Shown: piece after piece, positions 16,933 through 40,325 of the stretch | How the letters are laid out: each line of letters opens with the position of its first letter | Position numbering within the stretch: position 1 is the stretch's first letter | Assembly: GCF_900184795.1 (NCBI RefSeq) | Contig: NZ_FXXN01000027.1 | Span: 293,748-357,747 of the forward strand | Direction of reading: 5' to 3' | DNA from: Magnetospirillum sp. 15-1 | GTDB taxonomy: Bacteria > Pseudomonadota > Alphaproteobacteria > Rhodospirillales > Magnetospirillaceae | DNA: 64,000 bases | Notes under the pieces: model-generated | The model's input: only the letters and a program-made list of their open reading frames with translations | What the model was told of the DNA's origin: nothing | Databases searched by the model: none | Translations under genes and position numbers: made by a program

Positions 16933-19900
16933 ATGCACATTGATCCATCGCAGGTTCCGGCGGCGAAGAACCTCGCCACGCCGGTCGCCGACACCAAGGA
17001 AGCCGCCGAGCCCCCCTCGGCCGGCGCGGTGCCGATCGGCAAGGTGGATAAGCTCCAGGGTGATGCCTGGATCATCCACGACAGCCAGAAGGTCCCCGCC
17101 AGGGTCGGCGCGATTCTGGCCCAGGGCGATTCGGTGGAAACCTCGCAAGGCAGCCAGATTTCCCTGGTGTTCGCCGACCGCACCACCTTCGTGCTGAAGG
17201 ACAAGGGCCTGGTGGGCCTGGACGAGTTCTCCTACAACCCGGCCACCAAGAGCGGCAAGCAAACCCTCCTGGTGGCCCAGGGCGGCTTCAGCTTCGTGTC
17301 GGGCGATATCGCCAAGACCCAGCCCGACGCCGCCCACATCGCCACCCCGGTGATGAGCATGGGTATTCGCGGTACCACGGTGGCCGGAGCCGTGGGCGCC
17401 GACGGCAATACCTCGGTGGCGCTGCTGCCCGATCCCGGTTCCAACTTCGTCGGCGAGGTGGCGGTCAGCGCGCTCGGCGGCGGCGGCCAGACCTTCACCC
17501 TCAATTCCGCCGGCTCGGGTATCCTCAACGCCAGTTCGGGAAGTTCGTGGTCGGTATCGGCCAATGCGGCGGCAGCCGTGGCGAATTTCGCTCCTGCCCC
17601 GGTGGCGCCGCCCGCCACGTCGCCCAATCTCGGCAGCGGATCGACCGGAAGCGGCAACGGCCCGGCCGGCAACACCGGGGCTCCGACCGATCCCGGCACC
17701 GGTGGAGGAGGAGACCATCCACCGCCGGTCTCGCTGCCGCAGCCCATTCCGGATCCCAAGCCGGAACCGAAACCTGAGCCGAAGCCGGATCCCAAACCCG
17801 ATCCCAAGCCCGATCCCAAGCCGGACCCGGTGCCGCCACAGAACCACGACCCAACTGTCACATCCACGACCCATGCCACCGCCGACGATCACAACGGTCT
17901 GACCAGCGGCACCATCACCGCCCGCGACAGTGACGGCGATAAGCTGAGCTATCACCTGCAGGGCGGGTCGGCGCTGGACGCCGCCCACGACGCCAAGGTG
18001 ACCACCCACGGTACCATCACCCTCAATACCGCCGACGGTACCTACACCTTTACCCCCAATACGGCGGCGGCGGGCATGGCCACCGGGCAGACCGCCACCG
18101 ACACCGCCGCCGTGGTGGTGAGTGACGGCCACGGCTCGATCACCGCTACCGCCACCGTCGACATCACCGGTACCAACGACACCCCGACGGCCAGCGGCTC
18201 GGCATCGGCCGGCTCGACGACGACCAATACCGCGCTGACCATTTCCATCTCGACCCTGGTGGGCAACGTCACCGATCCCGACAGCGGCGAGACCGCCTCG
18301 CTGACCCTGACCGGGACGATCACCGCCCTGCATGGCACGGTGGTGGACAACGGCAATGGCACCGTCACCTATACGCCCACCGGCGGTTATACCGGTGCCG
18401 ACACCCTCAGCTACACCGTCATCGACGTGAACGGCGCCACCGTCGGCGATACCGCCACCCTGACCGTGGGCGCCGGAGCCAACAGCGCGCCGACCATTTC
18501 GGCGGGCGTCAATGCCACGGCCAGCGACCATGCCGGCCTGACCGCCGGAACCATCACCGCCGGCGACGTGGACGGCGACACCCTGGCCTATCACCTGCAG
18601 GGCGGGTCGGTTCTGGACGCCACCCACGATATCAAGGCGACCACCCACGGCACCATCACCCTCGACACCACCAACGGGCACTATACCTTCACGCCGGATG
18701 CCTCGGCCGCCGCTCTGGGGCTGGGGCAGACCATTGCCGACACCGCCACCGTGGTGGTATCCGACGGCCATGGCGGCACGGCCAACACCACGGTGGCGGT
18801 CGGCATCACCGGCACCAACGACACCCCGGCGGCGAGCGGCTCGGCGGCGGCCGGCTCGACGACGGCCAACACCGCGCTGACCATTTCCATCTCGACCCTG
18901 GTGGGCAACGTCACCGATCCCGACAGCGGCGAGACCGCCTCGCTGACCCTGACCGGGGCGATTACCGCCCTGCACGGTACGGTGGTGAACAACGGCGACG
19001 GCACAGTTACATACACGCCCATCGGCGGTTATACCGGCGCCGATACCCTCAGCTACACCGTCACCGACGTGAACGGCGCCACCGTCGGCGATACCGCCAC
19101 CCTGACCGTGGGCGCCGGAGCCAACAGCGCGCCGACCATTTCGGCGGGCGTCAATGCCACGGCCAGCGACCATGCCGGCCTGACCGCCGGCACCATTACC
19201 GCCAGCGATGTGGACGGCGACACCCTGGCCTATCACCTCCAGGGTGGGTCGGTGCTGGACGCCACCCACGATATCAAGGCGACCACCCACGGTACCATCA
19301 CCCTCGATACCACCAACGGGCACTATACCTTCACGCCGGATGCCTCGGCCGCCGCTCTGGGGCTCGGGCAGACCATTGCCGACACCGCCACCGTGGTGGT
19401 ATCCGACGGCCATGGCGGCACGGCCAGCACCACGGTGGCGGTCGACATCACCGGTACCAACGACACCCCGACGGCCAGCGGCTCGGCGTCGGCCGGCTTG
19501 ACGGCGGCCAACACCGCGCTGACCATTTCCATCTCCACCCTGGTGGGTAACGCCACCGATCCCGATAGCGGCGAGACCGCCTCGCTGACCCTGACCGGGA
19601 CGATCACCGCCCTGCACGGCACGGTGGTGGACAACGGCAATGGCACGGTCACATACACGCCCATCGGCGCTTATACCGGCGCCGATACCCTCAGCTACAC
19701 CGTCACCGACGTGAACGGCGCCACCGTCGGCGATACCGCCACCCTGACCGTGGGTGCCGGACTCACCCAAAGCGGCACAGTGCTGCACTCCACGGTGGCC
19801 ACCACCCTGGCCGATACCGATTTCGCAGGGTTCACCGGCGCCAATACCCTGGTGTTCGACGTGGCCGCCGGCACCCAGGGCGTGACGCTCGGCACCAACA

Positions 19901-22900
19901 GCAACACCACCGGCATCACCAGGGTCGACGCCTCCCTCACCACCGGCGGCATCACCATCGACGGCCTGGCGGCCAGCGGCAACCTGTCGCTGCTTGGCGG
20001 TTCGGGCAACGACGTCATCCACGGGGCCAGCAACGACGCCCTGATCGACGGCGGTACGGGAACCAACGTGCTGTCCGTCGACGGCATCAACTTCGACGAC
20101 ACCTATGGCAACAACGGCCAGATCGTCAACATCCAGACCATCAACATCACCAACGCCACGGTGGCCGGTCAGTGGTTCAAGTTCGACGACCAGAACGACG
20201 GCTTCACCATCAACGTCACCAGCACTCAGAACGTCACCGTCCAGGGCAGCCAGGGCAATGACGTCATCAATGGCGGAACGGCCGGCGAATACCTGTGGGG
20301 CGACCAGGGCAACGACACAATCTACGGCAACGGGGGCAACGACACCCTGGTGGGCGGGTCGGGCAACGACGTCCTGACCGGCGGGGCGGGCACCGATGTG
20401 GCGGTCGTCAACGCGACCACGGCGGCCAGCACCATCAGCGCCAGCGGCAGCACCCTGACCGTACTCAGCACCGATGGCACCGACACCATCAGCGGGGTCG
20501 AGACCCTGCGCTTTACCGACCACGACGTCACGGTGTCGGGCGGCACCGCCTATTCCGAGGTCCAGGCCAACACCTACACCACCAGCGACCAGAAGAATCC
20601 GGCGATCACCACCCTGTCCGACGGCGGCTATGTCATCGCCTGGCAGTCCAGCGGCCAGGACGGCGACACCTGGGGTGTCTATGCCCAGATGTACAATGCC
20701 GACGGTTCGGTTCGCGGTTCCGAGCTTCACCTGAGCGGCTATACCGCCGGCGAGGAGAACGAGGTGACGCTGACCGCCACCTCGGACGGCGGCTTTATGG
20801 CCTCGTGGACCCAGTGGGCCGGGGAGGACGGCAACTATGGCGGCATCTTCGCCCGGCGCTTTGATTCCTCCGGCAACAATGTCCTGCTGACCGGCGCCAA
20901 CGGCTCCGGCGAGTTGCAGATCAACGTCACCACCGCGATGGACCAGAACGATTCCTATATCACCATGCTGTCCAACGGTGGGTTCCTGGTCACCTACAAA
21001 GTGGACGACACCGATTATTCCGGAGTCTCGGGGCGTTTCTTCGACAGTTCGGGTGTTGCCACCTCGGGCGAGTTCCGGATCAACCAGTTTGCTACCCAGC
21101 ACCAGATTTCCTCGGCCTCGGCCCAGATGTCCAACACCAACGTCATCGTGGTCTGGCAGTCCGACAACCAGGATGGGGACAACAGCCGGGGTGTCTATGG
21201 CCGCATCATGGACACCTCGGGGAATTTCCTGGGCAACGAGTTCGTGCTGGCCACCACCACCAACGGGGTGCAGAACACTCCGGCGGTGGCGGCGCTGGGC
21301 AGCGGCTTCGTCGCCATCTGGAGTTCCGAGAACCTTGCGGGTGATTCCGGCTTCGGTATCGCCGGACAGCGCTTCGACAGCGTCGGTGCCAAGGTCGGGT
21401 CCGAGTTCCACATCAACACCACCATGCCCGGCGACCAGTCGTTGCCGCAGGTGGTCACCCTGGCCAGCGGCGGCTTCGTGGTCGTATGGCAGGATTCCGC
21501 CGCCGACGGCTCGGGCAAGGGTATCTTCGGGCGGGTCTACGACGCTTCGGGCAACCCCATCACCAGCGAATTCCTGGTCAACACCACCGCCGCCCTCGAC
21601 CAGGGAAATCCGGTGGTGACCGCCCTGGCGGACGGCAGCTTCGTGGTCGCCTGGGATTCCAACGGGCAGGACGGCGCCGCCACCGGTGTCTACAGCCGGC
21701 ACTTCAACGCCGACGGCACGAGCTTGGCGCCGCTCACCCTGACCGCGTCCACCGGCAACGACACGCTGACGGTGGGCAGCGGCGTCCATCTGGTCGATCT
21801 CGGCAATGGTGACGACACCCTGAACACCAGCATGAGCGCGCTCAACGCCGGGATGTCGGTCCATGGCGGCGCCGGTTCCGATCAGGTGGTGATCAGCGAC
21901 ACCGCCTCGCTGGGCACGACGCAATTGGGACAGTTGACGGGGGTCGAGACCCTGACCCTGGCCTCGACCATCTCCACCGCCCAGAGTGTTGACCTGGGAA
22001 GCGACAGCAATACCCCCGGCCTGGTGGTGGTGAATGGCGCGGCGGCCACCGGAGCCCTTACTCTTAACGGCAGCGGCAAGACCGCCGCCCTGACGCTGAC
22101 CGGTGGTTCCGGCAACGACATCATCACCGGCGGCGGCGGCAACGATACCCTGATCGGCGGTTCCGGCAACGATACCTTCGTCGGTGGCGCCGGCGGCGAT
22201 TCGCTGACCGGCGGGGCGGGCAGCGACACGTTCGTCTACACGGCGCCGTCTCAGACCCAGGACGGGATCGCCAACCGCGACATCATCACCGACTTCGTCA
22301 CCGGCACCGACCACATCAAAATCTCGCTGAGCGGGACGCATGTGGACGTGTCGAGCTTCGCCTCGGTGGGCAGCTATAACGGCGGGCAGGCGACGCTGGC
22401 CCTCGGCGGCGTCATCGGTGACGGCTTCTATTCCAGCGGCGACGCGGCTTTCTATATCTATACCCAGGGCACCACCACGGCCATTTCCGATGGCGGCTAC
22501 GTCATCGGCAGCACCAATGCCATCAACGCCTCGGACCTGCAATTCGATATTACCGGCACCTCGGGCAACGATACCCTGGTGGGCGGGGCCGGTGCCGATA
22601 CCATCAGCGGCGGAGGGGGCGACGATACCATCGTCGGCGGTGGGGGCGGCAACGTCATCGATGGCGGTACCGGTACCGATCAGCTCAGCTACGCCACCCT
22701 AGGGGCGGGGATTACCGCCACGGTTACCGGAGCCTCGGCCAGCGTGGTGCATTCGGGCGCCACCGATACCGTCTCCAACGTCGAGGTGCTGGTCGGCACC
22801 GCCTATAACGACACCATCAAGACCGACGGCGCCGTGGCCGGCACGGTGATCGGCGGTGGCGGTACCGACAGCTTCGTCCTGACCGCCAGCCCCGTCGCCA

Positions 22901-24024
22901 ATCAGACCATCGACGGCACCGGCGGCACCGGCAGCAGTCTGACGCTGGACATCGCCGGGCGTTCCGCCGATTCCCTGGTGCGCGATATGTCGTGGAGCGG
23001 TTCCGACCTGGTGCTGACCATGGATGGCGGCGGCACCGTGACGATCACCGGCGATACCGTCAACATCGTCGTCGATCCCCTGGACGGCTCCACCCACCAC
23101 ATCGTCGGGCAGGGTCTGGCGACCACGGCGCTGCAGGACTACATCGTGGTCGGCAGCGGTGCCGATACGTCGCTGACCGGCAATACCGGCGACGATATCC
23201 TGGTCTGGCACAGCGGCAACGCCACCCTTGACGGCGGAACCGGCAACGATACCGCCGATTTCGGCCATGCCTCGGGGGCGGTGGTCGCCGACCTGTTCGC
23301 CGGCACCACGGCGGTGATCGGCGGGGCCGAGACCGTTCACCTGCAATCCACCTTCACCGAGATTCACGGCGGCGATTACAACGACACCCTGACCGCCGGC
23401 ACCGGGGCATCCGTCCTGATGGGCGGCGATGGCGACAACGTTCTGGATGGCAGCCACAGCTCGTCGGCCACCGTGTCGTACCGCGACCAGTTGAGCGGCG
23501 TTACCGTCGACCTGACGGCCGGCACCGCGACCCACGGAGCCCATACCGACACCCTGACCGGCATCTCGGGGGTGATCGGTTCGGACTTCTCCGACACCAT
23601 TACCGGCAGTGCCGGAAACGATTACCTGGACGGTGGCCATGGCGCCAACACCCTGACCGGCGGTGCCGGGGCGGATACCTTCGTCCTCCATGCCTCGGCC
23701 AACGCCACCGCCACCCAGACCGTCACCGATTTCACGGTGGGCACCGACCAACTGGCCCTGTCCAATCGCGAGTTCAGCCTGGGCAGTTCCGGGACCTTGA
23801 CCGATGGGGTCAATTACGGCGAAGGGACGGCCATGGACGGCACCGCCCGGAATTTCGGCAGTGGCACCGACGGCGTGGTGGCCATTCAGAACGGCAGCAA
23901 CGTGGACCTGTGGCACACCAGCAACATGAGCGCCGCGACCAGCACCAATTCCCACTTGGTGGGCACCTTGGAGAACGTCAACACCAGCGCGCTGGACAAC
24001 ACCAGCTTCCACCTGGCGGTCTGA
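16933..24024 (+). CDS. giant FecR/Ig-like/RTX surface protein exported by type I secretion
   Basis: 2363 residues with no N-terminal signal peptide, as expected for a type I substrate. Residues about 36-154 form a FecR-like domain (GKVDKLQGDAWI through MSMGIRGTTVAG). Residues 274-302 are a DPKPEPKP-type linker. Residues 304-944 are three near-identical units, each a VCBS-like plus a cadherin-like domain with the GTNDTP signature. From about 1020 come RTX nonapeptides (GGSGNDVI, GGNGGNDTLVGG types) around a block at 1210-1596 of repeated strands such as GGYVIAWQSSGQDGDTWGVY. More RTX clusters lie near 1723-1770, 1877-1916 and 2226-2250. The C-terminus (GGAGADTFVL, then a hydrophobic aromatic-poor tail) resembles T1SS secretion ends. 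It is probably a calcium-dependent adhesin or biofilm protein. Function is inferred. Confidence 0.88.
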   Translation: MHIDPSQVPAAKNLATPVADTKEAAEPPSAGAVPIGKVDKLQGDAWIIHDSQKVPARVGAILAQGDSVETSQGSQISLVFADRTTFVLKDKGLVGLDEFSYNPATKSGKQTLLVAQGGFSFVSGDIAKTQPDAAHIATPVMSMGIRGTTVAGAVGADGNTSVALLPDPGSNFVGEVAVSALGGGGQTFTLNSAGSGILNASSGSSWSVSANAAAAVANFAPAPVAPPATSPNLGSGSTGSGNGPAGNTGAPTDPGTGGGGDHPPPVSLPQPIPDPKPEPKPEPKPDPKPDPKPDPKPDPVPPQNHDPTVTSTTHATADDHNGLTSGTITARDSDGDKLSYHLQGGSALDAAHDAKVTTHGTITLNTADGTYTFTPNTAAAGMATGQTATDTAAVVVSDGHGSITATATVDITGTNDTPTASGSASAGSTTTNTALTISISTLVGNVTDPDSGETASLTLTGTITALHGTVVDNGNGTVTYTPTGGYTGADTLSYTVIDVNGATVGDTATLTVGAGANSAPTISAGVNATASDHAGLTAGTITAGDVDGDTLAYHLQGGSVLDATHDIKATTHGTITLDTTNGHYTFTPDASAAALGLGQTIADTATVVVSDGHGGTANTTVAVGITGTNDTPAASGSAAAGSTTANTALTISISTLVGNVTDPDSGETASLTLTGAITALHGTVVNNGDGTVTYTPIGGYTGADTLSYTVTDVNGATVGDTATLTVGAGANSAPTISAGVNATASDHAGLTAGTITASDVDGDTLAYHLQGGSVLDATHDIKATTHGTITLDTTNGHYTFTPDASAAALGLGQTIADTATVVVSDGHGGTASTTVAVDITGTNDTPTASGSASAGLTAANTALTISISTLVGNATDPDSGETASLTLTGTITALHGTVVDNGNGTVTYTPIGAYTGADTLSYTVTDVNGATVGDTATLTVGAGLTQSGTVLHSTVATTLADTDFAGFTGANTLVFDVAAGTQGVTLGTNSNTTGITRVDASLTTGGITIDGLAASGNLSLLGGSGNDVIHGASNDALIDGGTGTNVLSVDGINFDDTYGNNGQIVNIQTINITNATVAGQWFKFDDQNDGFTINVTSTQNVTVQGSQGNDVINGGTAGEYLWGDQGNDTIYGNGGNDTLVGGSGNDVLTGGAGTDVAVVNATTAASTISASGSTLTVLSTDGTDTISGVETLRFTDHDVTVSGGTAYSEVQANTYTTSDQKNPAITTLSDGGYVIAWQSSGQDGDTWGVYAQMYNADGSVRGSELHLSGYTAGEENEVTLTATSDGGFMASWTQWAGEDGNYGGIFARRFDSSGNNVLLTGANGSGELQINVTTAMDQNDSYITMLSNGGFLVTYKVDDTDYSGVSGRFFDSSGVATSGEFRINQFATQHQISSASAQMSNTNVIVVWQSDNQDGDNSRGVYGRIMDTSGNFLGNEFVLATTTNGVQNTPAVAALGSGFVAIWSSENLAGDSGFGIAGQRFDSVGAKVGSEFHINTTMPGDQSLPQVVTLASGGFVVVWQDSAADGSGKGIFGRVYDASGNPITSEFLVNTTAALDQGNPVVTALADGSFVVAWDSNGQDGAATGVYSRHFNADGTSLAPLTLTASTGNDTLTVGSGVHLVDLGNGDDTLNTSMSALNAGMSVHGGAGSDQVVISDTASLGTTQLGQLTGVETLTLASTISTAQSVDLGSDSNTPGLVVVNGAAATGALTLNGSGKTAALTLTGGSGNDIITGGGGNDTLIGGSGNDTFVGGAGGDSLTGGAGSDTFVYTAPSQTQDGIANRDIITDFVTGTDHIKISLSGTHVDVSSFASVGSYNGGQATLALGGVIGDGFYSSGDAAFYIYTQGTTTAISDGGYVIGSTNAINASDLQFDITGTSGNDTLVGGAGADTISGGGGDDTIVGGGGGNVIDGGTGTDQLSYATLGAGITATVTGASASVVHSGATDTVSNVEVLVGTAYNDTIKTDGAVAGTVIGGGGTDSFVLTASPVANQTIDGTGGTGSSLTLDIAGRSADSLVRDMSWSGSDLVLTMDGGGTVTITGDTVNIVVDPLDGSTHHIVGQGLATTALQDYIVVGSGADTSLTGNTGDDILVWHSGNATLDGGTGNDTADFGHASGAVVADLFAGTTAVIGGAETVHLQSTFTEIHGGDYNDTLTAGTGASVLMGGDGDNVLDGSHSSSATVSYRDQLSGVTVDLTAGTATHGAHTDTLTGISGVIGSDFSDTITGSAGNDYLDGGHGANTLTGGAGADTFVLHASANATATQTVTDFTVGTDQLALSNREFSLGSSGTLTDGVNYGEGTAMDGTARNFGSGTDGVVAIQNGSNVDLWHTSNMSAATSTNSHLVGTLENVNTSALDNTSFHLAV
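17842..19764 (+). repeat. three tandem 642-bp repeat units inside the RTX protein gene
   Basis: Units at 17842-18480 (639 bp), 18481-19122 (642 bp) and 19123-19764 (642 bp). Each encodes about 214 residues, with units 2 and 3 nearly identical at DNA level and unit 1 diverged in its first half. Each begins with a VCBS-like domain ending GTNDTP and continues with a cadherin-like domain ending TLTVGAGA. Such units expand and contract by recombination. Confidence 0.9.
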
Positions 24025-24108
24025 CCGGCCGAAAGGCGCGGCCGCCAAGAGGACTTGCCTGAGGCCAGAGCATCTGGCACTTTCTGCCGACAGGGGGCTT
24101 CGGCGGGC

Positions 24109-24137
24109 TTGCGTCCTGCCCTCCCACCCCCTATCTT
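24109..24137 (+). promoter_or_regulatory. possible promoter of tRNA-Gly
   Basis: TTGCGT, 17 bases, TATCTT. The -10 lies 12 bases before the tRNA gene. The -35 is fair and the -10 moderate. Confidence 0.4.
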
Positions 24138-24149
24138 CTGCGCCTCGGC

Positions 24150-24223
24150 GCGGGTGTAGCTCAATGGTAGAGCAGAAGCTTCCCAAGCTTACGACGAGGG
24201 TTCGATTCCCTTCACCCGCTCCA
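24150..24223 (+). tRNA. tRNA-Gly (anticodon CCC), island attachment site
   Basis: The acceptor stem GCGGGTG pairs with CACCCGC. The D arm has GCTC/GAGC. The anticodon loop TTCCCAA gives CCC, reading GGG. The T arm has GGGTTCGATTCCC. The 3' end is T plus an encoded CCA. The 3' part from base 24178 is duplicated at 28145, and the tRNA stays intact because the integrated element restores it. Confidence 0.95.
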
Positions 24224-24229
24224 ACGCTT
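24178..24229 (+). repeat. attL direct repeat (52 bp)
   Basis: Left copy of the duplicated attachment sequence. It runs from the anticodon stem of tRNA-Gly through CCA and six bases beyond. The flanking bases differ from the right copy at both ends (A/G on the left, C/T on the right), so the duplication is exactly 52 bp. Confidence 0.92.
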
Positions 24230-24273
24230 CTGCGGCTTACAGCCCCGCAATCCCGAAAATAGCTTGAATTTTC

Positions 24274-24291
24274 GGACCAATTTGGACCACG
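24274..24291 (+). repeat. left arm-type site of the integrase
   Basis: GGACCAATTTGGACCACG occurs here and again, identically, at 28023-28040 near the other end. It contains GGACCA twice at 10-bp spacing. Further copies follow at 24297 (GGACCA) and, inverted, at about 24307 (TGGTCC). Positions near both att sites suit integrase arm-site binding. Confidence 0.65.
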
Positions 24292-24348
24292 CTAGTGGAC
24301 CAAGGGTGGTCCAACGTGTCCGCCCGGCTTGCGATTCCGGAGGCGGAA

Positions 24349-25422
24349 ATGGCGACCATTGACCAGCGCGGCCCCCATCAGTTTCGAGCCCGTGTGCGCC
24401 GGAAGGTGGGCGGCAAGTTGGTTACTCTGACCGAGACCTTTGAGACCCGCGAAGCGGCTGAAAAATGGGGGGTGACCAGAGACGGAAAGGTCGTCGGCGA
24501 TGAGTACGTGGACCGCAAGGAGGCTCGTTCCAAGACGGTGGCGCAAGCCTGCGAATGGTTCATGGATCGCATCGCGCCGATCGATACGACGACGAGCAAG
24601 CGCGTGGCCAAGAGCCAGCATGCCAAGAACCAGCTCTCCAAACTGAAATACTGGATCACCTCGGAGTTCGCCTCCTGGTCCCTGGTCTCGCTCAAGCCCT
24701 GGGATCTGATCGACTGGCGAGATCAGACGATGGATGAAGAGGGCTGCTCCGCCCAAACCATCGTTCACCGCCTTAACACGCTGTCGCAGGTCTACGTGAA
24801 CATCGCCTTGGCCCTGAAAATCGAACTCGCCAATCCAGTTGGCGAGAAGGTCCGCCCCTCCCTTGGGCCGGGTCGTGATCGACGCCTGGATGTTCACCCC
24901 GACAAGGACGGCAAGGACGAGGAGGTCAGGCTGCTGGAAGCCTGCGCCAGCAGTTCGCGCCCGTGGCTGAAGGCGGCCGTCATCATCAGCCTGGAATCGG
25001 CCTTGCGTCAGTCCGAGCTCGCTGGCCTGACCTGGGATCGGGTCAAGCTGAATGCCGAATATCCCCACTGCGATCTGCCGCGCACCAAGAATGAGCGCCC
25101 GCGCCGGGTGCCGCTTTCCACCAAGGCCATCGCCGCGTTCAAGTCTCTGCTGCCAGAGAATGTCACAGTCCTGGGCAAGCGCCCGGTGTTCCCCGTCGAG
25201 ACGCCCCGAGCCTTCGGCCACGCTTGGCGCGACGTGGTGAAGGATGAGACCTTCCCGGACTTCCGATGGCATGATCTCCGCCACGAGGCCGTCAGCCGCC
25301 TGTTCGAGCGCACCGATCTCCGCGACAATGAGATCATGGCCATCAGTGGCCATCTCCGGCCGGAGATGCTGACGCGATACACCCATCTGAGGGCGGATAG
25401 GTTGGGTGGGCGACTGGGTTAG
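24349..25422 (+). CDS. int: tyrosine-type site-specific integrase
   Basis: 357 residues. The MATIDQRGPHQFRARVRRK start is the short N-terminal arm-binding domain common in alphaproteobacterial tRNA-island integrases. A SAM-like core-binding domain follows, then the catalytic domain. Catalytic residues: Arg in SALRQSE, Lys region near RTKNERPRRVPL, HDLRH box, then GHLRPEMLTRYTHL with the nucleophilic Tyr. The ATG at 24349 follows GGAGG by five bases, so an upstream in-frame GTG (24295) is unlikely. It is 126 bases from the tRNA end. Confidence 0.95.
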   Translation: MATIDQRGPHQFRARVRRKVGGKLVTLTETFETREAAEKWGVTRDGKVVGDEYVDRKEARSKTVAQACEWFMDRIAPIDTTTSKRVAKSQHAKNQLSKLKYWITSEFASWSLVSLKPWDLIDWRDQTMDEEGCSAQTIVHRLNTLSQVYVNIALALKIELANPVGEKVRPSLGPGRDRRLDVHPDKDGKDEEVRLLEACASSSRPWLKAAVIISLESALRQSELAGLTWDRVKLNAEYPHCDLPRTKNERPRRVPLSTKAIAAFKSLLPENVTVLGKRPVFPVETPRAFGHAWRDVVKDETFPDFRWHDLRHEAVSRLFERTDLRDNEIMAISGHLRPEMLTRYTHLRADRLGGRLG

Positions 25423-25464
25423 GAGGCCACTTCACCCTTGCCTCAGCGCGGCGCAGAAACTACA

Positions 25465-25482
25465 TTGTATTCGGTTGTATTC
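25465..25482 (+). promoter_or_regulatory. tandem TTGTATTC operator ahead of the toxin-antitoxin genes
   Basis: TTGTATTC at 25465 and again at 25475, exactly one helical turn apart, 18 bases before the antitoxin start. Ribbon-helix-helix antitoxins typically bind such short phased repeats to repress their own operon. Confidence 0.45.
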
Positions 25483-25499
25483 TCATAGGGCCCGCTGCC

Positions 25500-25748
25500 A
25501 TGCAGAAAGATGTGACCATCACCGCCCGCATCGAATCCGATTTGTCCGACCGGCTGAATCGTCTGGCAAGCGTCCAGGGACGGAGCAAGTCCTGGGTCGT
25601 GGGCAAGGCGCTGAAAGCCTATCTCGATGCCGAACTGGCCTTCGTCGAGGCGGTCGAGGACGGCCTTGCTGATATGCACGAAGGTCGCACCATCCCCCAC
25701 GAGGAGGTAGTTGCCCGCTTCCAGTCCCGCTTTGGAGCGGCTGAGTGA
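25500..25748 (+). CDS. ribbon-helix-helix antitoxin (CopG/ParD-like)
   Basis: 82 residues. The VTITARIESDLSDRLNRLA strand and first helix, followed by GRSKSWVVGKALKAYLDAEL, give the RHH fold. The acidic C-terminal half (VEAVEDGLADMHEGRTIPHEE) should wrap the toxin. The stop overlaps the toxin start by four bases, so the pair is translationally coupled. It represses its own promoter if it behaves like relatives. Confidence 0.85.
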   Translation: MQKDVTITARIESDLSDRLNRLASVQGRSKSWVVGKALKAYLDAELAFVEAVEDGLADMHEGRTIPHEEVVARFQSRFGAAE

Positions 25749-26026
25749 TCATCCGGTGGACCCGAAAAGCAGAAGCCGATCTGGCGGATCAATGCGACCA
25801 TATCGCCAAGGATGATCCCGTCCTGGCGGCCCGGATCGGCGGCGATATCTTCCGCACCATCCAGGGATTGAGCGATTTTCCCCTGCGCGGACGGCCTGGC
25901 CGTGTCGATGGCACCCGCGAATTGGTCCTGGCGGGATTGCCCTGGATTGCTGTTTACGCCGTCACCGACAGCACCATCGTGGTCTTGCGTCTGCTCCACG
26001 GAGCGCAAGCCTATCCACCGGAGTAG
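25745..26026 (+). CDS. ParE/RelE-family toxin
   Basis: 93 residues. Seen: RWTRKAEADLADQCDHIA at the start, the LSDFPLRGRPGRVDGTRELV segment and the LRLLHGAQAYP end, all typical of the RelE/ParE fold in its ParE-like branch. ParE members act on gyrase; RelE members cut mRNA. Which applies here cannot be told from sequence alone. It starts with GTG inside the antitoxin stop (GTGA). Confidence 0.87.
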   Translation: MIIRWTRKAEADLADQCDHIAKDDPVLAARIGGDIFRTIQGLSDFPLRGRPGRVDGTRELVLAGLPWIAVYAVTDSTIVVLRLLHGAQAYPPE

Positions 26027-26032
26027 CTCGGG

Positions 26033-26323
26033 ATGACTGACCACGCAGCCGACCGGATCATGCAGGGCTTGAGCGAAGCTCTCGCCCACGCCAAGGGCGA
26101 GATGATTCCAGACCTGGCGCCTCACATTCCCGCCCAGGTGGACGTGTCGGCCATCCGCCGACGCACTGGCCTGTCCCAGGCCGCCTTCTCGCGTCGCATC
26201 GGCGTTTCGCCGACAACCCTGCGCAATTGGGAGCAAGGCCGCTGCAGCCCAAAAGGCCCTGCACGCGTGCTGTTGGCGATGCTGGACCGCAATCCCCGGA
26301 TCGTCGAAGAAACGCTGGAGTAA
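26033..26323 (+). CDS. Xre-family helix-turn-helix regulator (HigA-like)
   Basis: 96 residues. The second half is an Xre helix-turn-helix (DVSAIRRRTGLSQAAFSRRI, GVSPTTLRNWEQGR, then GPARVLLAML). This form is usually the antitoxin of RelE/HigB-like toxins. Here it lies six bases after a toxin that already has its own RHH antitoxin, giving a three-gene antitoxin-toxin-regulator order. Confidence 0.8.
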   Translation: MTDHAADRIMQGLSEALAHAKGEMIPDLAPHIPAQVDVSAIRRRTGLSQAAFSRRIGVSPTTLRNWEQGRCSPKGPARVLLAMLDRNPRIVEETLE

Positions 26324-26345
26324 ATAGCTCGGCTCGGAGATCGCC

Positions 26346-26639
26346 ATGCGCACCCTTGACGACATCATGACCCAGCTTCGAGCGCTTCTGCCCGACCTAC
26401 GTTGTCGCTATCCCATCCGCTCCATAGGGGTGTTTGGCTCGTATGTGCGTGGCGAACAGCGTGAAGGCAGCGATTTGGATGTGCTGGTGGAATTAGGCGA
26501 CGGCATGGATTTGATCGCCTTTGCCGGCCTTCAGATCGAACTCAGCGATGCCTTGGGGCTTTCCGTCGAATTGGTCGAGCGCGAGGCACTGCGCCCCAGG
26601 CTGGCGGCTCATGTTCTCGCGGAAGTCATGCTCTTGTGA
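26346..26639 (+). CDS. minimal nucleotidyltransferase (MNT, MntA-like)
   Basis: 97 residues. The motif GVFGSYVRGEQREGSDLDVL is the GS-x-A/V-RG ... SDxDxL signature of minimal nucleotidyltransferases, with two catalytic aspartates in DLD. These are usually antitoxins that AMPylate a neighbouring HEPN toxin. No HEPN gene with an RxxxxH motif lies on either side, so it is an orphan or has lost its partner. The ATG is preceded by GGAG, and the gene follows the Xre gene by 22 bases in the same direction. Confidence 0.82.
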   Translation: MRTLDDIMTQLRALLPDLRCRYPIRSIGVFGSYVRGEQREGSDLDVLVELGDGMDLIAFAGLQIELSDALGLSVELVEREALRPRLAAHVLAEVMLL

Positions 26640-26661
26640 CGTCTAGCCGCGATCGTGAAAT

Positions 26662-26910
26662 TTAAAGTTTCCGCCCGATCAGTTCGTCGAGCATTCGCCA
26701 AGCATTGTCAATCTGCTTGATGTCGCCGCTAGTCATGGCCTTGCTTAGCTCCGAGTAGGCCGCCTCAGCTCGCTTACGCGGCTTGGAATCGGTTGAAGGA
26801 ATTCTATCAATCGCATTCAGAAGAATTCTATTCACGATCGACTGAAGCCCCGCCAATCTATTTAAGTCTTGGTCATTCACGTCAATACACCTTGTCAGAT
26901 CAGAATTCAT
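26662..26910 (-). CDS. hypothetical 82-residue protein
   Basis: I do not recognise a family. The protein is hydrophilic and mostly helical (LNRLAGLQSIVNRILLNAID, then AEAAYSELSKAMTSGDIKQI), without a signal peptide or membrane segment. It is more AT-rich than the chromosome, a sign of transfer. It lies on the strand opposite to the toxin genes and 43 bases downstream of the OLD-type remnant. It contains no His, so it is not a HEPN domain. Confidence 0.5.
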   Translation of the reverse strand: MNSDLTRCIDVNDQDLNRLAGLQSIVNRILLNAIDRIPSTDSKPRKRAEAAYSELSKAMTSGDIKQIDNAWRMLDELIGRKL

Positions 26911-26953
26911 ATAGATGATCAGTGCGCGGCATCATAAAAAGAGACCGCTCATG

Positions 26954-27550
26954 TCATGCGAACGGATCCATATTCTTCTCCCTAATAACCTTGAACAATA
27001 CTTTGATTCTAGCGAATAACCTCTCAAACCCCTGAAGCGAGGCTTCGGTAAACACATCTGCAGGCTTCTCAGCTGCTTTGCGAAGTAGAAGTTTGGCCGG
27101 TCGTGTCTTGTTGAACTCCATGCCAAGTTCCTTGAAGGCTTTTTCATAGCGCTGAACTCGCCGAGGAAACTTATCATTTAATTTCAGAGTTTTGCCCTTG
27201 AGGTCCTTAGCGTAGGCCTCGAGGACAAGCGCCTCATAAACGGCAGGATCGATGAGGTCCTCAATGTCGGCCTCTGCCTCAGCCGCGAGCCCCTCACTGG
27301 CGAAAACAACATGATCGTCAGCCAGCAGCTTCTGCTTAACCAGATCCTCGGCCGTTTGGCGTGAGGCACGCTCGTCATCGAGCAGGATGACCACTTTCAG
27401 CTGGTTTGAAGCCAGCAGTACAACAAGATAGTGGACCTTTTGGGCGCCTCCCGCTGGAGTGACCGTAACCACGTCAGGCAAATGTGTGCGTCCAGCATCC
27501 TTGAGTGCCTCGGAGAATACGGTCAGATACCAGTAGTCGGTGACAGGCCT
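26954..27550 (-). pseudogene. C-terminal TOPRIM remnant of an OLD-family endonuclease
   Basis: About 198 residues resemble the end of OLD/GajA-like nucleases: VTDYWYLTVFSEALKDAG, a hydrophobic strand then LLDDERAS (DxD position), and EADIEDLIDPAVYEALV. The N-terminal ABC-type ATPase, which should be about 350 residues, is missing. The catalytic Glu of the usual VEGxxD motif is out of frame: the other frame reads WLLEG at this point. The remnant is joined to the 3' end of an AlpA-like gene by what looks like a single missing base. It is probably non-functional defence debris. Confidence 0.65.
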
Positions 27551-27726
27551 TCCAGAAGCCAGCGTTCGAATGTCGGTACGTGGTAAAGAATCCGGCCGCT
27601 TTTCCGAATCACCGGAGGACCGTTGACGCAGTCTTTCATCCCCAGCTTCTTCAGCCGCGAATAGGGAATAATGTGGCCGTAAAGTGTGGCGATCTCGCGC
27701 CGTGTTTTGAAATCTGAGGGAGCCAT
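27523..27726 (-). CDS. AlpA/excisionase-like DNA-binding protein
   Basis: 67 residues from the ATG at 27726; in-frame starts at 27759 (ATG) and 27777 (GTG) would lengthen it. The TRREIATLYGHIIPYSRLKKL helix-turn-helix, GPPVIRKSGRILYHVPTFER wing and final Trp are the winged-helix pattern of AlpA regulators and excisionases. It is the natural candidate for recombination directionality factor of the island. The last 12 or so codons run into the OLD remnant in another frame. Confidence 0.65.
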   Translation of the reverse strand: MAPSDFKTRREIATLYGHIIPYSRLKKLGMKDCVNGPPVIRKSGRILYHVPTFERWLLEGLSPTTGI

Positions 27727-27730
27727 TATG

Positions 27731-27792
27731 GTCGCACACCTCTGCTGCGACCTGCCCATCCCACAGACAGAGTCCACAGCTTGGTGTGCGAC
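27731..27792 (-). promoter_or_regulatory. inverted repeat flanking the AlpA-like gene start
   Basis: GTCGCACACC at 27731-27740 and its perfect inverse GGTGTGCGAC at 27783-27792, 42 bases apart. The first lies four bases from the ATG at 27726. This suits two half-sites for an autoregulator. Confidence 0.45.
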
Positions 27793-28022
27793 GCCCAGGC
27801 TTTGCAGCAGCGATAGCGGCTGCCAGACGGCCGTAGTGCCCTGAGGTGCGCCCCTGCGAGGGGGCCTTCTTATCGGCTCTGGCGATTACTCATCGCCCCG
27901 CTGCCGTTCTCAGGTAATCTTGCGGTCCTGGTCCGACACACATCGAGCGACACCTGACGGCCACCCGATATTGGGATGAGCTAAAATTAGCAGAACCGCG
28001 AGGAACCAGCAAGCCGATCCTT
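27793..28022. other. non-coding stretch inside the island
   Basis: About 230 bases between the AlpA-like operator and the right arm site. No gene is supported. I see no clear repeat; it probably contains the promoter of the AlpA-like gene. Confidence 0.4.
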
Positions 28023-28040
28023 GGACCAATTTGGACCACG
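28023..28040 (+). repeat. right arm-type site of the integrase
   Basis: Identical 18-bp copy of the left site at 24274-24291, GGACCAATTTGGACCACG, 105 bases from attR. Confidence 0.65.
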
Positions 28041-28046
28041 AAGAGC

Positions 28047-28126
28047 GAACTTTAGGGAACTTTTACGAACTCAGGCGAACCAATAATATCAACAAAAACA
28101 GTTGACTGGCGCGAACTGCCTGGAAC
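28047..28126 (+). promoter_or_regulatory. GAAC array phased at 10 bp beside attR
   Basis: GAAC occurs at 28047, 28057, 28067 and 28077, exactly 10 bp apart, then at 28113 and 28123, again 10 bp apart, with an AT-rich spacer (CAATAATATCAACAAAAACA) between. The phasing puts every copy on one face of the helix. This is expected of cooperative binding by an excisionase or accessory protein. Confidence 0.55.
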
Positions 28127-28144
28127 CGCTGGGGGCTCTGGACG

Positions 28145-28196
28145 GCTTCCCAAGCTTACGACGAGGGTTCGATTCCCTTCACCCGCTCCAACGCTT
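28145..28196 (+). repeat. attR direct repeat: 3' fragment of tRNA-Gly
   Basis: Right copy of the 52-bp repeat. It holds the 3' part of tRNA-Gly including CCA, but no 5' half, so it is not a functional tRNA. Confidence 0.92.
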
Positions 28197-28246: not shown

Positions 28247-28268
28247 TTGCCGTGGGATTTGGCCCGAG

Positions 28269-29810
28269 CTATTTCAGATACAGCGCCACGGCCAGGGCGG
28301 CGGCGATGACCCAGGCTATCAGGGACGAGGGGCGGCGGATGCGGCCCTGGTCGGCGAAGATGGTCTTTACCGTGTCGGGATGCAGCTTGAGGCCGTGGTT
28401 GACCAGCATGGAATAGGTCTTCTCGGTCTCGGCCAGCAGGCGGGGCAGGCGTTCGAGCGAGCCGACCACGCTGGTCACCGTTTCCCGCACCCGGGCCTCG
28501 GGGCCGAGATTCTCGCGCATCCAACCCTCGATCAGCGGTTGGGCCAGATGCCACATGTTGATGTTGGGGTCGAGGATGCGCCCGACGCCCTCGGCCACCA
28601 GCATGCTCTTTTGCAGCAGCAGCAATTGCGGCTGGGTTTCCATGGCGAAGGTCTCGGTGACCTGGAACAGCTGGCCCAGCAGCTTGGCGATGGAAATCTC
28701 GTGCAGCGGGCGGCCCAGGATGGGTTCGGCGATGGAGCGGCAGGCCTGGGTGAAGGTATCCAGGGACTGGTCGGCGGGCACGTAGCCGGCAGCGAAATGC
28801 ACCTCGGCCACCTTGCGGTAGTCGCCCGACAGGAAGCCCAGCAGCATCTCGCCCAGGAAACGCCGGGTGCGCTTGTCGACGCGCCCCATGATGCCGAAAT
28901 CCATGGCGATCAGGGTGCCGTTCTCACCGATGAACAGATTGCCCGGATGCATGTCGGCGTGGAAGAAGCCGTCACGGAACACCTGGTTGAACATGGCCTC
29001 GGCGGCCTTGGCCAGCACGTCGACGGGATCGATGCCGGCGGCCCGCAGGCGGTCGGTCTCGTCCACCGGAATGCCCGAGACGCGCTCCAGGGTCAGCAGG
29101 CGCTTGCCGGTGCGCAGCCAGTCCACCTCGGGGACCTTGAAATTGTCGTCGCCGCGGAAGTTCTCGGCCAGTTCGGAGGCGGCGGCCGCCTCGAAGCGCA
29201 GATCCATCTCGAGGGTGACGGATTCCTCGAAGGTCTTGACCGTCTCCACCGGCTTGAGGCGGCGGATGCGGGGAATGGTCAGCTCCGCCCACTCGGCCAG
29301 CCAATACAAGAGGTCGATGTCGCGGTGGAACTTGGCCTCGACGCCGGGACGCAGCACCTTGACCGCCACTTCGCGGCCTTCGCGCGTGGTGGCGAAATGC
29401 ACCTGGGCGATGGAGGCCGCCGCCACCGGTGCGTCGTCGAAGGTGGAATAGAAATCGGACAGCGGCCCGCCCAGTTCCTCCTCGACGATGCGCCGCGCCT
29501 CCGCGGGCGGGAACGGCGGCAATTCGTCCTGCAGCCCCGACAGGTCGGCGGCCATTTCCTCGCCCAGCAGGTCGGCGCGGGTAGACAGCGCCTGGCCCAG
29601 CTTGATGAAGGACGGTCCCAGTTCGGCCAGGGCGGCGGCCAGCCGCAGGCCCGGACGGCCGGTACTGACCGGCGAGCGGCCGCCGCGCAGCAGCTTCGAG
29701 CCGAAGCGCGCGATGGGCAGGTAGTCTTCCAGCAGGAACAGGGCGTCGTGGCGGGCCAGGACGCGGCCGATGGTCAGCAGGCGGTTGAGATTGCGGACGG
29801 AACGGATCAT
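28269..29810 (-). CDS. ubiB: ubiquinone biosynthesis regulatory protein UbiB
   Basis: 513 residues, an atypical protein-kinase-like ATPase needed for ubiquinone synthesis. Seen: the KxGQ motif in FIKLGQALSTRADLL, AVKVLRPG with the ATP-binding Lys, FFHADMHPGNLF catalytic loop and AMDFGIMGR. The C-terminus has a membrane helix ending at the last residue (IAWVIAAALAVALYL). It lies downstream of ubiE on the same strand with a 91-base gap. Confidence 0.95.
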   Translation of the reverse strand: MIRSVRNLNRLLTIGRVLARHDALFLLEDYLPIARFGSKLLRGGRSPVSTGRPGLRLAAALAELGPSFIKLGQALSTRADLLGEEMAADLSGLQDELPPFPPAEARRIVEEELGGPLSDFYSTFDDAPVAAASIAQVHFATTREGREVAVKVLRPGVEAKFHRDIDLLYWLAEWAELTIPRIRRLKPVETVKTFEESVTLEMDLRFEAAAASELAENFRGDDNFKVPEVDWLRTGKRLLTLERVSGIPVDETDRLRAAGIDPVDVLAKAAEAMFNQVFRDGFFHADMHPGNLFIGENGTLIAMDFGIMGRVDKRTRRFLGEMLLGFLSGDYRKVAEVHFAAGYVPADQSLDTFTQACRSIAEPILGRPLHEISIAKLLGQLFQVTETFAMETQPQLLLLQKSMLVAEGVGRILDPNINMWHLAQPLIEGWMRENLGPEARVRETVTSVVGSLERLPRLLAETEKTYSMLVNHGLKLHPDTVKTIFADQGRIRRPSSLIAWVIAAALAVALYLK

Positions 29811-29901
29811 TTATGCGCCCCTCGCCGGGCGCGCCCGTGTGGGCGCTTGGCCGCCGCCTCAATGGCGGCAAGGATGCCGGCGAAAATGAAGTTCGCCGGC
29901 A

Positions 29902-30660
29902 TCAGAGCCGCCAGCCCGAATGGATGGCGGCGATGCCCGCCGACAGGTTGCGCACCTCGACACGGGCGAAGCCGGCGGCCTCGACCATGGCGGCCATCTC
30001 CTCCTGGGGCGGGAACTTGCGGATGCTTTCCACCAGATACTGATAGGCCTCGGCATTGCCGGTGACCATGCCGCCCACCTTGGGCAGCACGTTGAAGGAG
30101 TAGGCGTCATAGGCCTCGCGCAATCCCGGTACGATGACGCGGGAGAATTCCAGGCACATGAAGCGCCCGCCCGGTTTCAGGACCCGGTAGGCCTCGGCGA
30201 TGGCGCGGTCCCAATGGGTGACGTTGCGCAGGCAGAAGGCGATGGTATAGCGGTCGACCGACCGGTCGGGTATGGGCAATTCCTCGGCATTGCCGCACAC
30301 CCAGGTCAGTCCCCCCAGCAGATTGCGGTCCACGGCGCGGTCGCGCCCGACGGCCAGCATCTCGCGGTTGATGTCGCAGACGGTGACCGGTCCGCCGCCC
30401 CGCTTTTTCCAGCCGAAGGCGATGTCGCCGGTCCCGCCGCCCACGTCCAGCAGGGTCTGGTCCGGGCGGGGACGCAGCATGTCGAGGAACGCCGACTTCC
30501 ACAGGCGATGCACGCCGGCGCTCATCAGGTCGTTCATCAGGTCGTATTTGGACGCCACCGAATCGAAGACGCCGCGGACCAGAGAGACCTTCTCGGCCTC
30601 GGCCACGGTCTTGAAGCCGAAATGGGTGGTGCCGCCGTTGTGGGAATGGCTGTTCGTCAT
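29902..30660 (-). CDS. ubiE: ubiquinone/menaquinone C-methyltransferase UbiE
   Basis: 252 residues. SAM-dependent methyltransferase that adds the C-methyl group to the benzoquinol ring in ubiquinone synthesis. Seen: [20 protein letters not shown] near the start, [16 protein letters not shown], the SAM-binding [11 protein letters not shown] and the [20 protein letters not shown] region. It begins 83 bases from the divergent mutM. Confidence 0.96.
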
Positions 30661-30743
30661 GGTGCGGCACCTTATCGCGGAATTTCGGCGCTGTCACGAG
30701 GAGGGAGGGGACTTGGCGCGGCGCCTCCATTATACTGACGGCC

Positions 30744-31583
30744 ATGCCCGAGCTGCCCGAAGTCGAAACCGTCGCAAAAGGCCTGGCCCAAGTGTGGGAC
30801 GGGCGCCGTTTCGTGTCGGTGGAGACGCGGCGCGCCGGATTGCGCCTGCCGTTCCCCCGGGACTTCGCCAAGCGCCTGACCGGCCGCACCGTGGAGAAGG
30901 TCGGGCGCCGCGCCAAGTATCTGGTGGTGCGGCTCGACGGCGGGCTGGTGATGCTGGGCCATCTCGGCATGTCGGGACGCATGACCATCGGAGGGTTGCG
31001 CAATGCTCCGCCCGGTCCCCACGACCACGTGGAATGGGTGACCGATCAGGGCGTCAGCGTGACGCTGACCGATCCCCGCCGCTTCGGCCTGATGACCCTG
31101 TGCGATGCTTCCGAACTGGCAAGCCACCCGCTGCTGGCCGGCATCGGGCCCGAGCCGCTGGATGACGCCTTCGATGCCGGCGTGCTGGCCGAAGCTTTGG
31201 CGGGCAAGAGCGGGCCCATCAAGACGGTGCTGCTGGATCAGAAGGTGGTGGCGGGGCTGGGCAATATCTACGTGTGCGAAAGCCTGTTCCGTTCGGGCAT
31301 CTCGCCGCTGCGCCCCGCCGGAGGCCTGAGCCGGGCCGAGGTGGGCCGCCTGCTTCCCGAGATCAAGGCGGTGCTCCGCGAGGCCATCGCGGCGGGGGGC
31401 TCCACCCTGCGCGACCACGCCCGCCCCGACGGCGAACTGGGGTATTTCCAGCACTCCTTCCAGGTCTACGGCCGCGAGGGCGAGAGCTGTCCCGGCTGTC
31501 CCGGGGCGCCGGAATGCGGCGGTATCAGCCGGATTACGCAGGCGGGCCGCTCCACTTTCTATTGTGCGAAGCGTCAAGGGTGA
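30744..31583 (+). CDS. mutM: formamidopyrimidine-DNA glycosylase (variant zinc finger)
   Basis: 279 residues. Removes 8-oxoguanine and formamidopyrimidines from DNA. The N-terminal PELPEVE with catalytic Pro2 and Glu3, the [10 protein letters not shown] strand, and [18 protein letters not shown] helix-2-turn-helix are intact. The C-terminal zinc finger is odd: [13 protein letters not shown] then [12 protein letters not shown], where the usual YCPxC end would place a fourth Cys. Here the codon is CGT (Arg), one transition from TGT. The extra Cys in APEC may substitute as ligand. Confidence 0.94.
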
Positions 31584-31598
31584 TGGTATAGGCTTTCC

Positions 31599-31958
31599 AT
31601 GGCTCGTTTTCGGCGTCTGGCTACCGCTTTCGTGCTTACCCTCCTGCTCGGCGCCGGTTCGGCGCGGGCCGAGGCGTTCCTGTCCGCCTACGAGGATCTG
31701 CCGCTGCCCCCCGGCCTGACCGAGGCGATGGGGTCGGGCGTATCCTTCGATTCTCCCTCTGGGCGGATCGTCGAGGCCTATGCCCACGGCGCCGCCAAGG
31801 CCGCCGACATCCTGAAATTCTATGCCGCCACCCTGCCGCAGTTGGGCTGGACCCGCGAGAGCGACCGGCTCTACCGCCGCGAGGCCGAGGTGCTGCGACT
31901 CGAGACGTCCCACGACCGCGCCGGGACGACCCTGCGCTTCACCATTTCCCCCGAGTGA
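31599..31958 (+). CDS. small secreted protein of unknown function
   Basis: 119 residues. An Arg-rich start, a hydrophobic stretch (LATAFVLTLLLGAGS) and ARAEA form a clear Sec signal peptide with cleavage after ARA. The mature part is about 95 residues with a mixed alpha/beta pattern, including ILKFYAATLPQLGWTRES and a final beta strand TTLRFTISPE. It is likely periplasmic. It lies 15 bases after mutM and 38 before the enoyl-CoA hydratase gene, all on the plus strand. I do not assign a function. Confidence 0.75.
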   Translation: MARFRRLATAFVLTLLLGAGSARAEAFLSAYEDLPLPPGLTEAMGSGVSFDSPSGRIVEAYAHGAAKAADILKFYAATLPQLGWTRESDRLYRREAEVLRLETSHDRAGTTLRFTISPE

Positions 31959-31996
31959 CACACCCCAATCGACACTCTTAGCGAAGAGGAATTCCC

Positions 31997-32773
31997 ATGG
32001 CTTTCGAGAACATCACCGTCGAGACCCGCGGCAATGTCGGCCTGATCGCGCTAAACCGCCCCAAGGCCATGAACGCGCTGTGCGCCGCCCTGATCAGCGA
32101 GCTGGGCCAGGCGCTCGACGCCTTCGAAGCCGACGATTCCATCGGCGCCGTGGTGCTGACCGGCTCGGACAAGGCCTTCGCCGCCGGCGCCGACATCAAG
32201 GAGATGGCGTCGAAGGGCTACATGGATGTCTACCTCGCCAACTTCATCACCGACGGCTGGGAGCGCGTCACCAAGTGCCGCAAGCCCATCGTTGCGGCGG
32301 TGGCCGGCTTCGCGCTGGGCGGCGGCTGCGAGATGGCCATGATGTGCGACTTCATCATCGCCGGCGACAACGCCAGGTTCGGCCAGCCCGAGATCACCAT
32401 CGGCACCATTCCCGGCGCCGGCGGCACCCAGCGCCTGACGCGGGCCGTGGGCAAGTCCAAGGCCATGGAGATGTGTCTCACCGGCCGCATGATGGATGCC
32501 GCCGAGGCCGAGCGTGCCGGGCTGGTCAGCCGCATCGTGCCGGTGGCCGAACTGGTGGATGAGGCCGTCAAGGCCGCCTCCAAGATCGCGGCCCTGTCGC
32601 GCCCCATCGTCATGCTGTGCAAGGAATCGGTCAACGCCGCCTTCGAGACCATGCTGGCCCAGGGCGTCACCTTCGAGCGCCGGCTGTTCCATTCCACCTT
32701 CTCCACCGAGGACCAGAAGGAAGGCATGGCCGCCTTCGTCGAGAAGCGCGCCCCGGCTTTCAAGAACAGGTAG
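31997..32773 (+). CDS. enoyl-CoA hydratase
   Basis: 258 residues, crotonase fold. Hydrates trans-2-enoyl-CoA in fatty acid beta-oxidation. The oxyanion-hole segments are visible: [12 protein letters not shown] and [17 protein letters not shown], with the catalytic Glu pair in GCEMA and in [19 protein letters not shown]. It is normal length. The start follows GAAGAGGA. A hairpin follows the stop. Confidence 0.93.
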
Positions 32774-32781
32774 AACGGCGA

Positions 32782-32809: not shown

Positions 32810-32818
32810 ATTCAACGC

Positions 32819-32847: not shown

Positions 32848-32888
32848 CGCGCCTTCGAATTTGCAACCGTGTTCCAAGGTTCTGATCC

Positions 32889-36338: not shown

Positions 36339-40325
<3,987 letters not shown>

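Follow-up and report, generated by a model that had tools for sequence, protein, structure and literature searches.

A 64,000-nucleotide stretch of the genome of Magnetospirillum sp. 15-1 (contig NZ_FXXN01000027.1), referred to as the window, holds at its tRNA-Gly(CCC) gene a small genomic island bounded by two copies (attL and attR) of the 3' part of that tRNA. The island is read as a tRNA-Gly element with an uninterrupted integrase and both att sites, likely an internal-deletion derivative of a larger integrative and mobilizable element (IME) of the same integrase clade, in which excision is probably impaired; this reading is given a probability of roughly 0.7. One precise junction shows how a mobilizable island can be worn down to an integrase, att sites, and toxin-antitoxin genes.

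The complete tRNA-Gly(CCC) (24150 to 24223, forward strand) is the only tRNA gene found in the window by ARAGORN and is the target of integration. The direct repeats attL (24178 to 24229) and attR (28145 to 28196), both given on the forward strand, are exact over 52 bp and start 3,967 bp apart, and chance is ruled out for such a match inside 4 kb. Repeat search and ARAGORN agree to the base with the first-pass annotation, made from the sequence alone, which had proposed these repeats and their spacing. Each consists of 46 bp of the 3' part of tRNA-Gly and 6 bp (ACGCTT). Since the two ends of the sister element in Magnetospirillum sulfuroxidans J10 (G049) are identical only as far as the terminal CCA, those 46 bp probably make up the functional core, and the last six bases may be incidental. 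GC content by overlapping 4-kb steps is 0.591 from position 24001 and 0.610 in the next step, against 0.642 to 0.697 everywhere else. The marks of a tRNA-associated genomic island, namely a tRNA target, flanking repeats, an integrase, and atypical composition, are all present.

The tyrosine integrase (24295 to 25422, forward strand; PF00589, 5.6e-20), which the first-pass annotation had rightly assigned to the island, is uninterrupted, with its conserved start probably at 24349 (MATIDQ). Residues R221, H309, R312, H336, and Y345 (alignment numbering), which we take to be the catalytic residues, are invariant in all 12 aligned integrases of the clade. A protein search with the window integrase returned 3,837 matches at E values up to 0.001, including two database proteins (P0034 and P0035) that are 95% identical to it and are encoded on contigs of 1.8 and 7.7 kb. 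Matches past 1e-60 occur in three genomes of an even draw of 385 from the class, the host (G000) included, and 53 of the 56 family genomes have some match at E 0.001. Full-length integrases of the same genus reach 43% identity at most, whereas the closest ones from another genus, in UBA6219 (G041) and G049, reach 81 and 77%, which points to horizontal arrival of the island. No further copy was found in the host, where the next integrases are just 33 to 35% identical. A plasmid origin was rejected, as all but one of the 2,299 plasmid records matching the integrase fall below 60% identity, and that one lies in the 60 to 80% band. In a separate database protein (P0113), internally deleted pieces of a near-identical integrase are fused to ParE, giving another broken relative.

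The clade, a chromosomal family, was defined by an integrase at least 53% identical to that of the window and an adjoining copy of the tRNA-Gly 3' end; the window has both. Thirteen integrases were examined, comprising those of the window, ten loci (L150-L159), a second G041 copy (54% over residues 2-326), and L018 (53%), with the partial rows G043:C30, G044, and G052 left outside this set. All 13 adjoin a tRNA-Gly 3'-end copy, and the sister elements beside tRNA-Gly ends that the first-pass annotation had expected from an integrase search were thereby recovered. In 10 of the 13, a tRNA 5' half can be read ahead of the core, the exceptions being G041 (both copies) and G043; ARAGORN reports no tRNA in the G041 locus L016, tRNA-Gly(CCC) in L017, and tRNA-Gly(TCC) in L018. 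The partial integrase copy of G039 has no recognisable core within 9 mismatches. Tandem att copies occur in both UBA6219 and M. sulfuroxidans J10 (loci L189 and L179/L180); in the former the second att copy is followed by another clade integrase, and in the latter a third copy lies 7.9 kb further. In G009 a 2.5-kb segment between two tRNA-Gly ends (L069, 4382-6890) carries a CitMHS-type transporter and GGGACA arm-like repeats, has no integrase, and is probably a decayed relative.

Beyond the integrase and core, the clade shares predicted arm sites. In the window the left arm consists of a GGACCA direct repeat at 10-bp distance and an inverted TTGGACCA copy (24271 to 24314, forward strand), in the same place as in most sisters, and the right arm consists of TTGGACCA twice, 10 bp apart, 124 bp before attR (28021 to 28040, forward strand). 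A 7-mer repeated 10 bp apart, with one mismatch allowed, follows the core in all 13 elements, at an offset of 45 to 52 in 11 of them, 28 to 32 in the second G041 copy, and 71 to 74 in G029; such a repeat at offset 40 to 55 occurs in 1.4% of random window stretches. The counterpart at the right end also lies 124 bp before the right core in the two-ended elements (111 bp in G031), and the motif class is the same at both ends in five of five: GGACCA in the window, G049, and G041, GGGACA in G032, and GTGACA in G031. The longest word common to both ends is 18 in the window and in G041, compared with shuffle maxima of 12 and 11. Between right arm and core lies a tract with 10-bp phasing, made of GAAC in the window (28045 to 28126, forward strand) and G049 and of a GCA-like motif in the other two-ended elements. 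Its lag-10 signal was reached by 0 of 5,000 base shuffles in the window (P 0.001 in both G041 and G031). Because RdfS of ICEMlSymR7A binds at about one molecule per 10 bp (PMC11963761), these phased tracts are predicted to be excision-factor sites.

A candidate for that factor adjoins attR. In all four two-ended sisters (G049, G041, G032, and G031), a small minus-strand gene has its start 358 to 400 bp before attR and an RGRP(T/R)KA tail at its end. The window gene at this place (27523 to 27726, minus strand), read as a helix-turn-helix (HTH) protein and a candidate recombination directionality factor (RDF), is 81% identical to the G049 gene over 65 residues and is truncated, so that of the HTH-like gene with RGRP tail that marks the clade, the gene is present and the tail is gone. 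It is followed by the C-terminal fragment of an OLD-type (AAA+TOPRIM) nuclease (26954 to 27544, minus strand), 52% identical to P0006 from the VTDYW motif on. DNA homology of the HTH-like gene to its G049 counterpart ends at 27554, and OLD homology begins at 27544, ten bases further on and in a different frame; on this homology the boundary is a deletion junction that lacks both the tail of the HTH-like gene and the front of the OLD gene. The OLD protein was rejected as an intact defence gene, since its match starts at VTDYW and the ATPase part is missing. The fragment is absent from all other genomes of the 56 in the family.

The sisters suggest what the ancestor may have carried. Mobilization and Rep genes occur in two of the four two-ended sisters (8 and 18 kb), as a MobA/VirD2 relaxase (6.3e-24), NikA, and a Rep_1 match just below cut-off in G041, and as NikA/MobC, Rep3, and a large LPD7/Toprim protein in G049; G032 and G031 carry a serine resolvase. 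These cargo lists are partial, as the frames scanned were four of the nine picked in G041, six of the 11 in G032 other than the integrase, the two in G031, and about half of those in G049, and gene picks in the sisters and in the flank are guesses from length and codon score, not annotation. With these mobilization and Rep genes and the HTH/OLD junction, the first-pass choice between a satellite that borrows mobility and a decayed remnant leans towards a deletion derivative of an IME-like family.

Several observations weigh against this derivation. G049 and G041, with integrases 77 to 81% identical, carry cargo unlike that of the window; the larger ancestor is thus read from sisters with different cargo, and deletion is shown at one junction only. 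G032 and G031 have resolvases but no relaxase among the picked frames scanned (six of the 11 non-integrase frames in G032, both frames and the HTH-like gene in G031). The attR-proximal gene of G032 shares 62% identity with its G031 counterpart and 52% with that of G041, but no sequence match at E 0.01 joins this type to the genes of the window and G049, so the shared role assigned to them rests on place and tail. The window and G049 genes match no Pfam family, and only the G041 gene hits HTH_17, below cut-off; structure models of attR-proximal genes were too poor (mean predicted local distance difference test scores of 57.6 and 53.3) and were not used for a fold-library search. At the ends, the longest shared words of G049, G032, and G031 (9, 8, and 7) are not above shuffles, so that their end match rests on the place and spacing of the repeats, and the phased tract gives a weak lag-10 signal in G049 (P 0.060) and G032 (P 0.216).

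The remaining cargo was characterised by scanning eight reading frames of the island against Pfam, NCBIfam, PHROGs, and PADLOC (E limit 0.1). No relaxase, replication, or phage structural family was found among them, which bears out the earlier statement that genes for conjugation, replication, and phage structure are lacking, with the sole exception of a weak terminase-small-subunit match of the HTH of the Xre protein (phrog_57, 0.015). A ribbon-helix-helix (RHH) antitoxin of CopG/RelB-like type (25500 to 25748, forward strand; PF01402, 3.1e-05; NF048017 under its cut-off) and a ParE-type toxin (25745 to 26026, forward strand; PF05016, 1.3e-16) form, judged by these matches, a complete toxin-antitoxin pair. 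They are followed on the same strand by an Xre/HigA-like antitoxin gene (26033 to 26323; phrog_2104, 1.7e-23), which in relatives comes after a RelE gene missing here, and an MNT nucleotidyltransferase gene (MntA-like; 26346 to 26639), which lacks its HEPN partner and matches PDC-S09 (5.8e-24), a candidate defence model of PADLOC. On the minus strand lies an 82-aa open frame (26662 to 26910) with no Pfam match and a weak match to phrog_1869 (0.0021). What had been described as several toxin or defence fragments therefore includes one true fragment, the C-terminal part of the OLD-type nuclease, the others being the complete RHH-ParE pair and single Xre and MNT genes.

The toxin next to the Xre gene varies among relatives. 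A single Xre antitoxin family is found behind ParE in the window and G013, behind RelE in G039, G014, and G010 (Pfam-confirmed in G039 and G010), and behind what reads like a MazF/PemK toxin in G033 (loci L091-L094, L190, and L073); in G008 it stands behind a RelE that reads as frameshifted. Because a broken integrase in G039, its last 94 residues 93% identical to those of the window, precedes RelE-Xre, the toxin adjoining Xre was probably exchanged within this lineage. The MNT gene is followed by a HepT-like HEPN gene in G014 and, as read, in G016 and G041; it stands without HEPN in the window and, as read, in G008. Pairwise dN/dS for pairs that include the window is 0.13-0.22 for Xre and 0.08-0.15 for MNT, compared with 0.07-0.16 and 0.06-0.19 for other pairs. 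In six-gene sets, private nonsynonymous to synonymous changes in the window number 7:5 for Xre (elsewhere 2:4 in G039, 2:7 in G014, 1:1 in G008, 3:4 in G010, and 8:7 in G033) and 8:9 for MNT (elsewhere 0:4 in G014, 3:1 in G008, 2:1 in G016, 1:5 in G041, and 1:5 in G042). These counts hint at relaxed constraint on both window genes, but no such sign is seen when the comparison is limited to the four closest MNT genes, where the window has 12:23 and the others 0:7, 4:3, and 2:2.

The target gene is present in all 18 genomes searched in the genus, and six of them have a second copy of the tRNA 3' end downstream on the same contig, at 4.0 kb in G000, 2.5 kb in G009, 7.8 kb in G006 and G014, 8.8 kb in G010, and 9.1 kb in G002. 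In G012 and G016 a partial 3'-end copy lies on a different contig; G001 instead repeats the upstream half of the tRNA, and G003 has a 22-bp match 2.8 kb away. The island integrases of G014, G012, G001, and G015 are just 22 to 33% identical to that of the window; unrelated integrases thus share the site. The G014 island also encodes an 851-aa NACHT and pentapeptide-repeat protein, a possible defence gene (L068, 6252-8807). In G013, segments of 235 and 386 bp at the site match 25405-25639 (94%) and 25772-26157 (90%), and no integrase was found at this relic. A second putative island of the host itself joins tRNA-Gly(GCC) to a partial 3'-end copy 6.4 kb later (L087, 3728-10084; G000:C25:239677-246084).

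One empty site was found, in G011, with several of the remaining single-copy genomes ending at a contig edge. The left flank of G011 is 85% identical to 24055-24229, and identity of the core continues to 28200, so the single-copy empty site expected by the first-pass annotation holds for the left flank and the first right-hand bases. Further right, homology to the window from 39967 onward starts about 37 bp after the tRNA in G011, and the same sequence follows attR by 36 bp in G010. Between attR and this sequence the window has an 11.7-kb block (about 28263-39966), whose frames read like ubiB, ubiE, mutM, dnaA, dnaN, recF, and gyrB (names by reading) and which breaks collinearity. The counter-case of relatives with the same flanks and no empty site is accordingly excluded for one half, as the window right of attR is not collinear with G011. 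The right-flank rearrangement is not explained by the island. The minimum of the cumulative GC skew lies between about 24 and 42 kb of the window, which fits a nearby origin; the origin region seems to have moved beside the tRNA, or the neighbourhood to have been rearranged repeatedly across the genus. In the ubiB-ubiE gap, a sequence of about 53 bp (29817-29869) has at least dozens of matches over six relatives, as a dispersed repeat resembling repetitive extragenic palindromes or miniature inverted-repeat transposable elements. Just upstream of the tRNA lies a 2,363-aa repetitive RTX-like protein (16933-24024), preceded at 12122-16908 by what looks, on reading, like a type I secretion set of three genes.

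In the mechanism proposed, the integrase, bound to the GGACCA arm repeats, would recombine the attP of a circular form with the tRNA-Gly 3' half, so that a whole tRNA is restored at the left end. The predicted excision factor is the small HTH-like protein by attR, which would act on the phased GAAC tract; because this candidate has lost its C-terminal RGRP tail at the junction with the OLD fragment, the island is probably impaired in excision. Cells that lose the island would be penalised by RHH-ParE, Xre and MNT are likely what remains of toxin-antitoxin pairs after replacement or loss of the toxins, and any remaining transfer would need helper functions in trans.

The clearest competitor to a deletion derivative is a fully functional minimal element, for which integrase, arms, and short HTH protein are enough and which hitchhikes on plasmids, integrative and conjugative elements (ICEs), or phages with stability and defence cargo. 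The integrase and both att ends do look intact, the 95%-identical integrases in the database would fit an active element, and the host has one relaxase above its Pfam cut-off that might act in trans. This explanation is nevertheless unlikely: the HTH gene is without the tail that all four sisters keep, the scanned frames revealed no packaging function, and G013 and G039, the nearest relatives met among the 56 genomes of the family, are broken copies (a comparison made without the full island as DNA query). Least probable by far is that a tRNA duplication or an assembly error produced the repeat by accident and that the genes form an unrelated cluster. Loss of collinearity with relatives past about 28214 would suit it, but the recurrence of the int-att-arm architecture in other genera and the empty site in G011 speak against it, and the sisters largely refute it.

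A more elaborate possibility, improbable in our estimate, is that orphan Xre and MNT antitoxins were kept because they neutralise RelE and HEPN toxins that rival islands bring to the same tRNA-Gly. An anti-addiction role of orphan antitoxins has been proposed in the literature (PMC7354431). At the same tRNA, the G014 island has an MNT 85% identical to that of the window together with its HEPN toxin, and the G010 island an Xre 77% identical together with RelE; both window genes have open frames, pairs that include them give dN/dS of 0.08-0.22, and G008 likewise combines an MNT lacking HEPN with an Xre behind an apparently frameshifted RelE. The private changes in the window hint at relaxed constraint in the six-gene sets and not in the set of closest MNT genes, and Xre may instead be a third component alongside RHH-ParE. 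Equally doubtful is the extended form, in which rival islands at one tRNA-Gly fight by toxin-antitoxin cassettes and a stripped element hoards Xre and MNT against RelE and HEPN, holds its place by RHH-ParE, and has its excision factor clipped for permanence. The integrases at tRNA-Gly ends form a natural series with arm motifs GGACCA, GGGACA, GTGACA, GGCACA, and GGAGCA, a ready set for studying co-change of arm-binding domain and arm site, and the exchange of toxin partners around one Xre gene offers a testable case.

Phage satellites (PICI and P4-like) are small, integrated in tRNA genes, and reliant on others for movement. The island resembles them in all three respects, but beyond the weak Xre HTH match no packaging or capsid gene was found in its eight frames by PHROGs, and its integrase shares about 30% full-length identity with the nearest viral and phage ones (viral scan, best 80 of 370 relatives); a phage satellite was therefore rejected. 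With IMEs in tRNA 3' ends, the island shares a tyrosine integrase, a target at the tRNA 3' end that the repeat leaves intact, a candidate RDF, and toxin-antitoxin cargo, and two sisters add a relaxase or NikA/MobC and Rep genes. BcenGI2 is such an IME, in the 3' end of tRNA-Ala with Rep_3 and a toxin-antitoxin system (PMC5704250). The integration module with att sites is present in the window copy, whereas no mobilization or replication gene is found in its eight frames; lacking the mobilization module, it is not itself an IME. Cis-mobilizable elements (CIMEs) are defined by att ends kept and an integration gene lost (PMC5704250). The island likewise keeps attL and attR and is without transfer genes, but its integrase is uninterrupted, so that it is not a CIME. 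IntS and RdfS of ICEMlSymR7A (PMC11963761) offer a parallel of architecture, not of sequence comparison: a tyrosine integrase with several arm-type sites and a small RDF bound about once per 10 bp of attP DNA. They serve a large, complete ICE, whereas the candidate RDF gene of the window adjoins attR and is truncated.

The first-pass annotation had also suggested an undescribed element family. No paper on this tRNA-Gly integrase clade was found among titles and abstract openings, and novelty lies in that clade only; as a type of element, the island is ordinary. On the best reading, it works like an IME-type tRNA island with a half-disabled movement module and is best filed as a deleted derivative of the tRNA-Gly element family.

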